Shown here in pieces: positions 34,755 to 39,909 of a stretch of DNA of 45,520 nt (its first letter is position 1; every line of letters begins with the position of its first letter). The stretch spans positions 1 through 45,520 of IMG/VR virus record IMGVR_UViG_3300024999_002322. One strand, written 5' to 3'. The translations under genes and the position numbers were made by a program. Below the pieces are notes generated by a model that saw nothing but the letters and a program-made list of their open reading frames with translations, did no database searches and was not told where the DNA came from. The stretch is from a virus.

Positions 34755-35525
34755 TTGGCAAAATGGACAGCAGAAAAAAAGCAAGAGGTATTGGCCATGG
34801 CCGAGACCGCCACTATTCGGGAAGCCTCTGAAAAGTTTGGCGTGCCTGAGGGTACAATTAAGAGATGGCGAAGCGAACTAAGAGAGAAAACCGAACCGAA
34901 CCGGAAAAGTGAACCGAAAAAGAACCATGAACCAAACCCAGATGAAATCAGCTGGATTGATATTGAAAACGAATATGTTACAGATGTTCGTCGGAAGGCT
35001 TGTACGCTTGAGGATTTAAGTAAAAAGTATAGCATACCTATCCAGACTATATATGATCAATCAGCGGCCAATAAGTGGAGTGAAAAAAGAAGGACATACA
35101 GAGAGAGAACGAAGGAAAAAGCCAGGGAGAAATTATCCGAAAAAGTTAGTTCTGACGTGGCAGTAGCGTTAGCAAAGCATTTCAAACTATCAGACACAGT
35201 TATCAAGATAGTGGAAAAGGCTTTATCCGACGAAAAAGAGCTTTATAAGTATGTGGAGAAGCTCCGGACAGGAACTGGCCCTGGCGAATTCAAAGAGGAA
35301 ATCACCTATGAGGTTATTGAGTCGCTCAATGACGGTAAACTTCTGAATATCGTCAACGCATTGGATAAGCTTCAAAAGATGCAGCGTCAAACACTTTGCA
35401 TCATGGATGAAAAGGATAAGCAGCGAATTGATTTGGTGAAGGCAAAATTAGAGCAGGGCGGGGATCCCGGTAAAGGTGATTCCTGGGCAGACCTGGTAGT
35501 CGGTGATGACGATGAAGAATCTTAG
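34755..35525 (+). CDS. Terminase small subunit
   Basis: About 256 residues. Residues 1-45 form a helix-turn-helix (EVLAMAETATIREASEKFGVPEGTIKRWRSEL). A second HTH follows near 80-110 (LEDLSKKYSIPIQTIYDQSAANKW), then a basic linker (RTYRERTKEKAREKL) and a helical oligomerisation region. The double HTH and place directly before the large terminase identify the DNA-recognition subunit that selects packaging substrates. The TTG at 34755 is favoured by spacing to AAGAGGTGG; GTG codons at 34746 and 34749 are alternatives. It overlaps the large subunit gene by about 20 nt. Confidence 0.82.
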   Translation: MAKWTAEKKQEVLAMAETATIREASEKFGVPEGTIKRWRSELREKTEPNRKSEPKKNHEPNPDEISWIDIENEYVTDVRRKACTLEDLSKKYSIPIQTIYDQSAANKWSEKRRTYRERTKEKAREKLSEKVSSDVAVALAKHFKLSDTVIKIVEKALSDEKELYKYVEKLRTGTGPGEFKEEITYEVIESLNDGKLLNIVNALDKLQKMQRQTLCIMDEKDKQRIDLVKAKLEQGGDPGKGDSWADLVVGDDDEES

Positions 35526-36972
35526 TCCGGAGCAGAAGAAGGAACTCAAAAAGAAAGGTCAGACTAAACCGGTTTGGTGGGTGAAAAATGTCCTGGGTGT
35601 TATCCCATGGAGCAAGCAGCAAGAGATATTGAATTCAGTCAGGGACAATCCAAGAACTGCAGTCCGGAGCTGTCACGGCATAGGAAAGTCATTCACCGCA
35701 GGTCAAGTCATCCTGTGGTTTTTGTTCAACTTCCCTAGAAGCATTGTTCTCTCAACCGCTCCAACATGGCGCCAGGTGGAGAAGTTGGTCTGGAAGGAAG
35801 TCAGATCCGGCTACAAAAAGGCAAAGGTCAGACTAGGAGGCAAGCTCCTGCCAGTGCGACCGGAAATTCAGATCATCCAGGATGAATGGTATGCAATGGG
35901 GCTAAGCACTAACGACCCGGATCGCTTTCAGGGGTACCATGAGAAATACATCCTGATAGTGGTTGATGAGGCTGCCGGTGTTCCAGAAGATATATTTTTA
36001 GCCGTTGATGGTGTGCTAACGTCAGCACATGCACGCCTTTTATTGTTAGGTAACCCTACATCATTGAGCGGTACCTTCTATAATGCTTTCCGGGGCACTG
36101 GCTGGAATACTATTGCGATATCTGCCTTTGATACGCCGAACTTCACGGAATTTGGCATCACGGAAGATGACGTTGCCAGTGATGCCTGGGAGAGTAAAAT
36201 AACCGGTCCGCTGCCCAACCCTAAATTGATTACACCTGCCTGGGTAGCCGATAAGTACCTTCGCTGGGGGCCTGATTCACCGGCTTATCAAGCCAGGGCA
36301 AAAGGACAGTTCCCGACCGAGGCAGACGATACACTTATTCCGCTGGCTTGGATTGAGGCAGCCATGGAGCGCGAGGTAAACAAATTAACTCCGGTCAGGA
36401 TTGGAAATGATGTGGCCCGTTTTGGTAGTGATAAAACAGTAATTTGCACACGCAAAGGCCTTAAGGTTCTGCCGCTCAAGGTGTACGCCAAGAAGGACAC
36501 CATGGAGACAGCTGGCCTGGCTATAGCTGAGCAGAAACATTATAACGCTGAGCATATACTGGTTGATGTTATTGGCCAGGGTGCTGGTGTAGTTGACCGA
36601 CTGAAGGAGCAGGGCTATCCTGTGGTAGCCATTAACGTGGCAGAGTCAGCGACGGATCCGGAAAGGTTTGCTGATTTGAGATCCGAAATGTGGTGGAACT
36701 TAAGGTATTTACTTGACCCAAATCCTAAGGGTAACCCCAATCCTATAGCGCTGCCGAAGGATGATGAGCTCCTAGGTGACCTGAGCGGGATTAAATACAA
36801 GTATACCAGCAAGGGACAAATCAGGGTTGAAAGTAAGGATGAGATGAAAAAGCGGATTAAGCGGAGCCCTGACCGGGGTGACGCTGTTGTGCTGGCATTC
36901 GGCGATCCGAACAGGGGTGAAGCAAGTGCCAAAGACCTGGCTGCATTAGGGGGGATTAGAATTTATGGCTGA
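35506..36972 (+). CDS. Terminase large subunit
   Basis: A 488-residue packaging motor. The N-terminal ATPase has Walker A CHGIGKS at 56-62 and Walker B VVDEA at 152-156, with a GNPTSLSG coupling motif after it. The C-terminal RNase H-like nuclease has Asp ligands in GNDVARFGSDKT, LVDVIGQGAG and PDRGDAVVLAFG. It cuts concatemers and pumps DNA into the prohead through the portal. Start options are ATG 35506 or 35512 within GTGATGACGATG. It overlaps both neighbouring genes, consistent with a tightly coupled packaging operon. Confidence 0.95.
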   Translation: MTMKNLSPEQKKELKKKGQTKPVWWVKNVLGVIPWSKQQEILNSVRDNPRTAVRSCHGIGKSFTAGQVILWFLFNFPRSIVLSTAPTWRQVEKLVWKEVRSGYKKAKVRLGGKLLPVRPEIQIIQDEWYAMGLSTNDPDRFQGYHEKYILIVVDEAAGVPEDIFLAVDGVLTSAHARLLLLGNPTSLSGTFYNAFRGTGWNTIAISAFDTPNFTEFGITEDDVASDAWESKITGPLPNPKLITPAWVADKYLRWGPDSPAYQARAKGQFPTEADDTLIPLAWIEAAMEREVNKLTPVRIGNDVARFGSDKTVICTRKGLKVLPLKVYAKKDTMETAGLAIAEQKHYNAEHILVDVIGQGAGVVDRLKEQGYPVVAINVAESATDPERFADLRSEMWWNLRYLLDPNPKGNPNPIALPKDDELLGDLSGIKYKYTSKGQIRVESKDEMKKRIKRSPDRGDAVVLAFGDPNRGEASAKDLAALGGIRIYG

Positions 36973-37411
36973 TTTCTTACCAGAAAGAGAAGATGGCGAG
37001 TCGGTACCGGACTATAATAAACGTTGTGCTGTAATCCTGAAGGCAAAGCAGGAATATTGGGCGAAAGTTTTGCGGGTGCAGGACTGGGATATAAAAAGCA
37101 CAATTATATCCCGTGAGGAAATGCATCATGAGCTGGAGCGTGATGGCTGTGTAGGATTTTGTACACGCGACAGAACACATAAAGAAGCTTATATTGCCTT
37201 ATTGGTCGATAAATCAAGTGAAGATGATTTTGTCCACGAGATGCTGCATATAGTCCTAGATGACGTTCAAGCCAGGGCATATAATGCATTTGAATCAGTT
37301 GAATCAAGGGCAGTCAGGGAGGCATTAGAACGTGAATTAAAAGAGAGTCTGGAAAGAACTATTAATATGCTTTCCGGGGCACTGCTTAAGGCAAGAGATG
37401 GGGCTATATAA
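36965..37411 (+). CDS. HExxH metallopeptidase-like protein between terminase and portal
   Basis: A 148-residue protein with a zinc-metallopeptidase motif HEMLH at 91-95 (DDFVHEMLHIVLDD), flanked by two helices in a short minimal-protease layout. GGGGGGA lies 9 nt before the ATG, and the gene overlaps the terminase end by 8 nt. Proteins like this are found in this slot in several Firmicutes phages, but the substrate is unknown; a structural or host protein is possible. It is distinct from the capsid protease region downstream. Confidence 0.7.
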   Translation: MADFLPEREDGESVPDYNKRCAVILKAKQEYWAKVLRVQDWDIKSTIISREEMHHELERDGCVGFCTRDRTHKEAYIALLVDKSSEDDFVHEMLHIVLDDVQARAYNAFESVESRAVREALERELKESLERTINMLSGALLKARDGAI

Positions 37412-38901
37412 TGGCTAAAACATTCTGGCTGAAAAAAGCTATCGGTGAGATATCTAAGCTGCTGGCCCCTGTGGTCAGTTTTTCTTTTGGACGTTCAACA
37501 GCTCCCTATGTGTTAAGTAGTCAAAAGGTAAAATACGAACTGACCAAGGCTTTGTATAAAAACACTGAGGACGGCTACAAACTGGGGGCTGCATTCGCCA
37601 GGCCGGTAATTGATACCTGCAACGGCTTCATGGGTACGCCTACACTCCGGAGCGTTGACGAAAACGCTCAGCAGGTCCTGGATGACCATATTGGCCGGTG
37701 GTCTGGTCGGTTCCTGATGGGGCAGCGGAATGCTCTTAGGGACGGTGACCAGTATTTTCGTTTGGTTCGTGTGGATGAAAATAATAGTAAGCTGTACAAA
37801 GAGACTGGACCGCGTATTGATTTAAGGACTATACCGGCAGGACAAATGCAGGACATAGAAGTTGACCCGGAGACGGGTGATATAGCTGCTTATGTCCGGG
37901 AAATTAAGGTTAAGTGGGGTGACAATAAGCGCAAAGAGTACGTTGTCACCGAGCGCATCACTGCAGAACAGACTGAAATTAAGTATTCCGGAAACGAGGT
38001 ACCGGCCGACAAAAATAATTATGAGGTACCTAACCCCTGGGGGTTTATTCCTATTGTTCACCTTAAGAACGAAGCAGAAGAGGATGAACTTTATGGCAGT
38101 TCCGATCTGGAACCAATTGAGCCATACTTGAAGGCATATCATGATGTTATGCTGCACGCTATGCAGGGCTCAAAGCTACATTCTACCCCAAAAATGAAGC
38201 TTAACGTTAAGGATGTCGCTCAGTTCCTATTGGTTAATTTTGGCGTTGATATCAGCAAGGTTAAGCCTGGTGAGAAGCCTAGCATATCCTTGGAAGGCAA
38301 GGAATTGCTCATACTTCGTGATGATGAGGATGCAGGCTTCATCGAAGTGCAGAGCCCGACCGGTGCGGCTGAGGTCCTGCTGAAATTCCTGTTTTATTGC
38401 ATTGTTGACGTAAGCCAGACTCCGGAGTTTGCTTTTGGTACCCACATTAAATCTAGTAATGCCAGCGTGCAGGAACAAATGGTGCCGCTCATCAGGAAAG
38501 TACAGCGCAAGCGGGGACAGTTTGAAGAGCAGTATCAACTACTTGGCCGGATGCTTTTGTCTATGTGGGAGCAGTCCGGAGGTGGTGGGATAAGCACCTA
38601 TGATACTGCAGTAGAGTGGGATCCCATTACTGAGAGAGATGAAAAAGGACTGGCTGAGACTTTGGATAAGTTGGTTAGTGCCTTAAGTAAAGCAGTCACC
38701 GATAATCTCATGAGTCAGCAGGCTGCAGTCGAATTCCTTGCTAACTATGTGCCTACTATGATGGCCTGGATATCCGATGACCCTGAGACACCAGGGGAGA
38801 GGGAACGAATTATTAAAACAATGTTATTGCGGTACCGGTTGGAGGATAGTGAAGGTTTGCTGGATGAGTCAAAAATCCTCAAAGAAGAGGGGGCTGCATA
38901 A
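37411..38901 (+). CDS. Portal protein (SPP1 Gp6-like)
   Basis: A 496-residue portal. The conserved middle (RNALRDGDQYFRLVRVDE, then NPWGFIPIVHLKNEAEEDELYGSSDLEPIEPYLKAYHDVMLHAMQ) matches the SPP1 Gp6-like family, which forms the dodecameric vertex for DNA entry and tail attachment. The TAATG overlap with the preceding gene couples translation. The N terminus has AIGEISKLL, which resembles the repeated GE[M/I] motif in the protease/scaffold protein. Length is normal for the family. Confidence 0.92.
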   Translation: MAKTFWLKKAIGEISKLLAPVVSFSFGRSTAPYVLSSQKVKYELTKALYKNTEDGYKLGAAFARPVIDTCNGFMGTPTLRSVDENAQQVLDDHIGRWSGRFLMGQRNALRDGDQYFRLVRVDENNSKLYKETGPRIDLRTIPAGQMQDIEVDPETGDIAAYVREIKVKWGDNKRKEYVVTERITAEQTEIKYSGNEVPADKNNYEVPNPWGFIPIVHLKNEAEEDELYGSSDLEPIEPYLKAYHDVMLHAMQGSKLHSTPKMKLNVKDVAQFLLVNFGVDISKVKPGEKPSISLEGKELLILRDDEDAGFIEVQSPTGAAEVLLKFLFYCIVDVSQTPEFAFGTHIKSSNASVQEQMVPLIRKVQRKRGQFEEQYQLLGRMLLSMWEQSGGGGISTYDTAVEWDPITERDEKGLAETLDKLVSALSKAVTDNLMSQQAAVEFLANYVPTMMAWISDDPETPGERERIIKTMLLRYRLEDSEGLLDESKILKEEGAA

Positions 38902-39771
38902 TTGGCATATAACCTTCATGATGCCCAGCGGGTAGTGAGGGAGTTAAGAGAGGCTTCCGGCGAATATGGCATATGGGCACTGCAGGCCCGGCAGGATTAC
39001 ATTAAGCTTCGGTTACGTCAGGATCCGGAGATAAGAAAGTTGTATCTGAAAGCAGCGCAAAACATTGCCAAGGAAATTCGTTTAGCTGGCAGCATACATC
39101 CTTTAAGGCAAAGGCAACTGGAGGCACTGGAAAGCCTCCTTAAACAGGAATGGCAGGCCTTTAACGACCAGTTGAAGGGTAGGCTGGAAAGCCATATCGA
39201 GCAGGCTGTCAAAATAACCGTGGAACCTGCCAGAGAAATCACTCTTAGGGCTGTGTCAGGTGCAAATGTCGGGCTCTCATCCGCCATAATCAGAGAAATG
39301 TATGTCACTGTAAACCATGCAGCCATTGAAGCAATATGGTCAAGGACAGTAAAAGGACTTCATCTATCCGACCGCATTTGGAACACATCTGAGAACTTTG
39401 GCAATGTTATGAGAGACATAATTCAGGCCGGGGTTGCTACTGGCCAGAATGCTGTGACAACAGCCAGGGCGCTGGAGAAGTACGTTAAAACTGATGTCTC
39501 TACGCTGGCCAAAAATTATCCTAATATGATGGAGCGCATGGCCGGACGGATACCGAAAAATGTCTGCTATGAAGCTTTGCGTTTGGCCAGGACAGAAATG
39601 ACTGCAGCTTACGGTGAGGGCGTAATTGTGTCTGGTAGGGTTAGTCCTGGGTATAAGGGTGTTAAGTGGGTGCTTTCTAATACGCATCCCATCTTTGATA
39701 TTTGTGATACTCTGGCCGGGAAAATATATGAAAAAGGTGATGAGCCTATGTATCCTGCTCATCCTAACTGA
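38902..39771 (+). CDS. MuF-like head morphogenesis protein (ends at an in-frame TGA)
   Basis: To the TGA the protein has 289 residues. Its C-terminal region is the MuF fold: ARTEMTAAYGEGVIVSGRV, KWVLSNTHPIFDICDTLAGKIYE, then YPAHPN. MuF-family proteins continue with a Cys after HPN, then x-Cys (HPNCLC). Here the codon at 39769-39771 is TGA, and the same frame continues with LCALVPVYEDP, exactly the family's next residues. The annotated stop is therefore either a nonsense change or a recoding site. TTG start with AAGAGGGGG about 9 nt upstream. The protein is a minor head component linked to portal and capsid assembly. Confidence 0.88.
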   Translation: MAYNLHDAQRVVRELREASGEYGIWALQARQDYIKLRLRQDPEIRKLYLKAAQNIAKEIRLAGSIHPLRQRQLEALESLLKQEWQAFNDQLKGRLESHIEQAVKITVEPAREITLRAVSGANVGLSSAIIREMYVTVNHAAIEAIWSRTVKGLHLSDRIWNTSENFGNVMRDIIQAGVATGQNAVTTARALEKYVKTDVSTLAKNYPNMMERMAGRIPKNVCYEALRLARTEMTAAYGEGVIVSGRVSPGYKGVKWVLSNTHPIFDICDTLAGKIYEKGDEPMYPAHPN

Positions 39772-39909
39772 CTGTGTGCATTGGTCCCCGTGTACGAGGA
39801 CCCTAACAAAATGATTGACCGATTATTAGTATGGAAAAAGAACCCGCAAAATCAGCCTGATTTAGAGGATTGGTACCAAAATATCTACAGAAATAAGAGG
39901 ATAGCTTGA
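39769..39909 (+). other. TGA recoding candidate, SECIS-like hairpin and 45-codon MuF extension
   Basis: TGA at 39769 is followed by 45 sense codons in frame to a TGA at 39907. They begin LCALVPVYEDPNKMIDRLL. At 39783-39802 GGTCC pairs with GGACC, with a C/A mismatch, two further pairs and a TGTA apical loop containing GU. The loop begins 19 nt after the TGA, within the usual bacterial SECIS spacing, and the GG of the stem falls at offset 15, close to that of the E. coli fdhF element. Selenocysteine in place of the family Cys is one reading; a nonsense mutation or an assembly error is the other. Confidence 0.5.

Follow-up and report, generated by a model that had tools for sequence, protein, structure and literature searches.

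Does the TGA that closes the minor head protein gene of this phage end the protein, or is it read as an amino acid in a longer form? The window, as we call the whole stretch of DNA analysed here, is an IMG/VR virus record of 45,520 bases from a temperate tailed phage; its genes include those for integrase, repressor, terminase, portal and head (Table 1). The gene order is terminase-portal-MuF. By its clear homology and its position among the head genes, the gene in question is, as far as sequence comparison goes, a MuF (PF04233) minor head protein, with a profile score of 24.2 bits (E=5.8e-5) that lies under the gathering cut-off of 29.6. Read through the TGA, the protein shares 43% identity with the BalMu-1 'head morphogenesis' protein and 39% with phiCD27 orf4 over 95% of its length. 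A sequence search of solved structures with the MuF protein returned no match. In an AlphaFold model of low confidence (mean pLDDT 52), the part beyond the TGA is predicted to form one strand and two helices of the C-terminal region. The C-terminus of MuF proteins serves as a fusion site of cargo domains in other phages.

Table 1. Positions of the features in the window and of the candidate shift sites in other MuF genes
Feature	Position	Strand	Basis or remark
Terminase gene	35503-36972		upstream of MuF gene
Portal gene	37411-38901		directly before MuF gene
MuF / SPP1-gp7-like minor head gene	38902..39771	+	conventional reading 289 aa, TTG start, stop TGA 39769
TGA at conserved Cys column, residue 290 of HPNxLC	39769..39771	+	alignment, codon tabulation
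Continuation, 45 codons + TGA stop 39907-39909	39772..39909	+	homologous to C-terminal tail of full-length MuF relatives
Proposed SECIS hairpin GGUCC-C-CG-UGUA-CG-A-GGACC	39783..39802	+	folding
Candidate +1 shift sites	L031:3464-3482; L040:2878-2896; L296:1915-1933		L296 in G426:C12, about 43300; bacterial genome

The first-pass annotation proposed selenocysteine (Sec) at this TGA, and its description of the codon is borne out. The triplet lies in the frame of the open reading frame, and alignment places it on the first Cys of the HPxCxC motif, a residue that is invariant in BalMu-1, phiCD27 and others. As had also been claimed, several other genes of the window stop at TGA, so the codon is not globally reassigned. 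Neither a tRNA nor an Rfam match was found in the window, and thus no phage-borne tRNA-Sec or suppressor tRNA.

The continuation is likewise as described: an open frame of 45 codons, LCALVPVYEDP...NKRIA, in the same frame as the gene. Homologues align across the TGA up to residue 331 (tblastn), and between the window and its nearest relative, L083, dN is 0.20 for the part before the TGA and 0.18 for the part behind it; synonymous sites are saturated in this comparison. The downstream frame therefore shows none of the decay that had been named as a refutation. An untranslated tail, if old, would have decayed, which leaves a TGA that is recent, erroneous or translated through. The coincidence with a conserved Cys, together with the undecayed tail, is real and goes beyond chance.

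What stands at this column in other MuF genes bears on all further readings. In a non-redundant count of homologues from viral and genomic searches the codon is TGC or TGT in 76, ACG or ACC (Thr) in eight and GAA or GAG (Glu) in four. Since the column takes Thr and Glu, it is not that of an obligate redox Cys. The neighbouring H262, C268 and H287 are nearly always kept, and the arrangement that they form with the Cys column suggests a metal-type site rather than a redox Cys. The Thr variants, in which the second Cys has become Ser (HPNTLS; L056, L059, L060, L063, L078, L108, L110, L112, L132), form one well-supported clade; those with Glu (HPNELC; L012, L020, L085, L113) do not.

TGA occurs at this column only in the window and in one distant MuF gene, L082, which came from a pattern scan directed at TGA. 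None was present among the homologue sets gathered without selection for TGA, and the homologues found in genomes of the Sec-decoding class all carry a sense codon. Of the three matches returned by the directed scan only L082 is a real MuF; L080 and L081 are chance matches outside the family. A control scan for TGA at the second Cys gave a single match, again not MuF. Of the Cys/TGA alternation that the annotation had put forward as a check, the pair at an almost invariant column and the intact homologous tail are supported, but no close relative has TGA there.

Other irregularities were observed in MuF genes. In L015, a TAG replaces a conserved Trp codon in an otherwise intact gene. L026:1720-2965 carries an intein-like insertion at HPN|C, with the frame broken inside the insert, and L039:2165-3300 an intein-like insertion at an upstream conserved Cys (DVC), which is open and ends ...AVHN before the Cys.

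The nearest relative, L083, belongs to a prophage in a Desulfotomaculum-type MAG. It shares 73% identity with the window gene, is its sister on the tree with 100/100 support and has TGT (Cys) at the column, one base from TGA. This prophage, at G001:C106:30000-89999 (L145-L147), shows synteny with the head and tail module of the window, the terminase at 85% and the portal at 78%. Judged by the syntenic prophage, the host is likely a Desulfotomaculum-type Firmicute. General decay of the phage was considered and rejected, as MAG homologues match intact frames in the other comparable late genes of the window.

In the MAG with L083, selA, selB, selC (tRNA-Sec) and selD were all found, which answers the proposed check on the host machinery for the nearest prophage and, by extension, for the presumed host group; the lack of selB or selC that had been named as a refutation is not seen there. 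The same Desulfotomaculum MAG has in-frame TGA codons inside two formate dehydrogenase genes and selD. Across the likely host class, 110 of the 113 genomes have SelB, and nearly all of the strong SelD matches listed contain one TGA. Given the sel genes and the prevalence of SelB, the likely host can decode Sec.

The hairpin claimed as a SECIS element is present: 39783-39787 pair with 39798-39802, two inner pairs follow past a C.A mismatch, and the UGUA loop starts 19 nt after the TGA. Its energy is -8.8 to -10.2 kcal/mol. Generic limits for bacterial SECIS elements (bSECIS) are a loop of 3-9 nt with a G within its first two positions, a stem of 4-16 bp, a spacing of 16-37 nt and an MFE <= -7.5 (PMC13188914). 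The window hairpin (spacing 19, UGUA) lies within them, as had been stated. The limits are equally satisfied by the corresponding site in 26 of 85 homologues, by 16 of 90 Cys codons and by 358 of 1200 codons drawn at random from the window. The agreement is therefore not specific, as 18-31% of ordinary codons or Cys homologues behave alike. Among synonymous recodings of the window site, 8% satisfy the bSECIS rules and 0.7% match the hairpin energy; in a second test, 3% fold as well. The hairpin is thus only marginally above chance.

SECIS elements of the host class (n=33) mostly have a continuous apical helix of 6-9 bp and a GGU apex. A class-type test for a GGU apex on an unbroken apical helix of 5 bp or more is passed by 29 of the 33 and, by chance, by 5.3% of window codons. 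The window hairpin, with an apical helix of 2 bp and a UGUA loop, fails it and thus does not resemble the SECIS elements of that class. As the generic rules are unspecific and the class-type test is failed, the hairpin lends little support to Sec.

L082 has its TGA at the same Cys column (L082:6093-6160; HPH-stop-MC). A hairpin of 6 bp with a GGU apex (AGCCAC-AGGTG-GTGGCT) begins 19 nt after this TGA and passes the class-type test, as do 3.8% of the codons in its own contig; at that stringency such hairpins turn up in about 4-5% of codons. Such a hairpin is absent from the Cys sisters L232, L276 and L227, yet that of L082 is no more stable than its own synonymous recodings. Of the two genes, L082 makes the stronger case for Sec. 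The N- and C-terminal parts of MuF in L082:4998-6275, L232:3712-4780 and L227:535-1840 do not share one continuous open frame: they lie in different frames in L232 and L227, and L082 has an out-of-phase stretch. A bad contig was dropped as an explanation for L082, as its sisters L232 and L227 also encode the MuF parts in different frames. The MuF genes of this clade are candidates for split genes or for another frameshift.

A different kind of stop was seen at the same motif in L031, L040 and L296. These genes read CAT CCC TAA C TG(C/T) CTT TG, with a zero-frame stop after His-Pro and the conserved tail in the +1 frame. The three genes are not one clade: each adjoins an unshifted relative on the tree, and the unshifted sisters carry other codons at the site (CCG AAT, CCT TCG, CCA AAC). 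Folding 5' of the site ranks 4, 12 and 13 of 120 in the shifted genes and 56, 58 and 81 in their unshifted sisters, although a fold as strong as that of the shifted genes is reached by 4%, 6% and 18% of their synonymous recodings. In the tsh tail genes of the Listeria phages PSA, A118 and A500, +1 shifting at CCC_UGA is established (PMC5009743). The MuF sequence CAT CCC TAA C is thus a candidate for a programmed +1 frameshift into the same tail. The window does not share the defining feature of these three genes, its extension being in the zero frame, and folding upstream of its TGA ranks 65 of 120, which is average. These candidates raise the credibility of a recoded stop in the window only modestly, because the match of the TGA with a conserved Cys is what singled the finding out, and such Cys are few in this gene.

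How, then, is the TGA best explained? The weights that we attach to the explanations are judgements and not computed posteriors, and a small remainder is assigned to none of them. Ranked first, with what we regard as an even chance, is the replacement of one base in a Cys codon (TGT or TGC), giving TGA, in the minor head gene of a temperate Firmicute phage; it would be either a recent real nonsense mutation or an assembly base error. The protein would then end at 289 aa, 46 codons early, and the tail would have stayed intact since the change is either young or spurious; we infer that the TGA is not recoded. Directly observed are the TGA and its column, a tail free of decay and the TGT of the nearest relative. 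The one-base distance to L083 counts for a plain change, as do the sense codons of the class homologues, the similar lesion in L015 and the undistinctive hairpin. The record is a single contig, and a search of IMG/VR gave no identical or near-identical second copy of the site, so the base has no independent confirmation; this, too, counts in favour. So does the minor and partly dispensable role of MuF in SPP1, which still assembles without gp7 (MuF), about 25% of its virions being infective (PMC6316719); a damaged MuF gene should therefore be tolerable to a phage. Against a plain change count the intact state of the other late genes, the TGA of L082 at the same column and the recoding-type stops of three unrelated MuF genes at the neighbouring codon. 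The few conserved Cys codons would, moreover, seldom be hit by a random nonsense change, though the finding was picked for precisely that.

A UGA followed by C is a weak termination context, and readthrough without Sec, in which a near-cognate tRNA reads the UGA in some ribosomes and MuF proteins of 289 and 335 aa result, is ranked second, a possible reading that we hold to be on the unlikely side. HPxCxC would then be the place where MuF genes set a leaky stop before the tail. This would fit a tail as strongly constrained as the remainder of the gene, the zero-frame stops of L031, L040 and L296 at the same place with their stronger 5' folding than in the sisters, and the Listeria precedent (PMC5009743). 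The window itself, however, has its tail in the zero frame, no shift site and average upstream folding, little weight attaches to the overlap with the shift site in a finding so selected, and readthrough of MuF stops is putative for every member. Decoding of the UGA as Sec by host SelB and tRNA-Sec through the hairpin, which would yield a phage structural selenoprotein, comes third and appears rather improbable. The selenocysteine claim keeps the exact Cys/TGA pair, the intact tail, a likely host class that decodes Sec almost universally, a hairpin within the generic limits that folds better than most synonymous recodings, and the GGU-apex hairpin of L082. It loses ground through the missing TGA in close relatives, generic rules that ordinary codons also satisfy, the failed class-type test, the unexceptional stability of the L082 hairpin, and Glu or Thr (the latter with the second Cys lost) at the column, a misfit with a redox Cys. 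In addition, a 2026 review of the prokaryotic selenoproteome contains no phage, capsid or MuF term, and the literature searched yielded no paper on phage selenoproteins or MuF recoding. Far less probable still is a truncated MuF whose tail would be a separate, working piece, started anew behind the TGA by reinitiation. Possible start codons follow at a short distance in the frame (e.g. TTG 39781, GTG 39790), and the L082 clade suggests that MuF can be split, but no Shine-Dalgarno-like sequence precedes either codon, and the tail runs straight on from the metal-motif residues and is placed in the C-terminal region by the low-confidence model.

Compared with the first-pass annotation, the three-gene CAT CCC TAA C candidate for a +1 shift and the L082 candidate, a TGA with a GGU-apex hairpin, are new. 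Taken at its broadest, the proposal would be that MuF proteins use recoded stops at HPxCxC to make a long minor form, by Sec or readthrough at UGA in the window and L082 and by a +1 shift at CCC UAA in other lineages. A structural selenoprotein, the first from any bacterial virus, would be among the consequences; we consider this whole rather unlikely. Should Sec be true, selenoproteins would extend to the particles of bacterial viruses, and phage fitness would be tied to the selenium supply of the host. Should readthrough be true, the window would be one more case of a minor head protein in which recoding recurs at one site. If there is only a nonsense change, the case illustrates that generic SECIS rules are weak evidence, with roughly one in five to one in three ordinary codons passing them.

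When compared with bacterial selenoproteins such as FdhA and SelD of the same class, the window gene has in common a UGA on a conserved Cys, an open frame beyond it, a hairpin at a permitted distance and the Sec machinery. It differs in lacking a conserved TGA in close relatives and the GGU apex and helix, its column is not only Cys, and no redox role is known for it. The +1 shifts of Listeria phages PSA, A118 and A500 combine a CCC before the stop with a C-terminally extended structural protein, as would L031, L040 and L296, whereas the window needs no change of frame, its tail standing in frame behind the UGA. With SPP1 gp7 and the MuF proteins (PF04233; phiCD27 orf4, BalMu-1 gp27), the window shares the gene order, 39-43% identity and the HPxCxC motif; where it has TGA, phiCD27 orf4, BalMu-1 gp27 and others have TGC or TGT.
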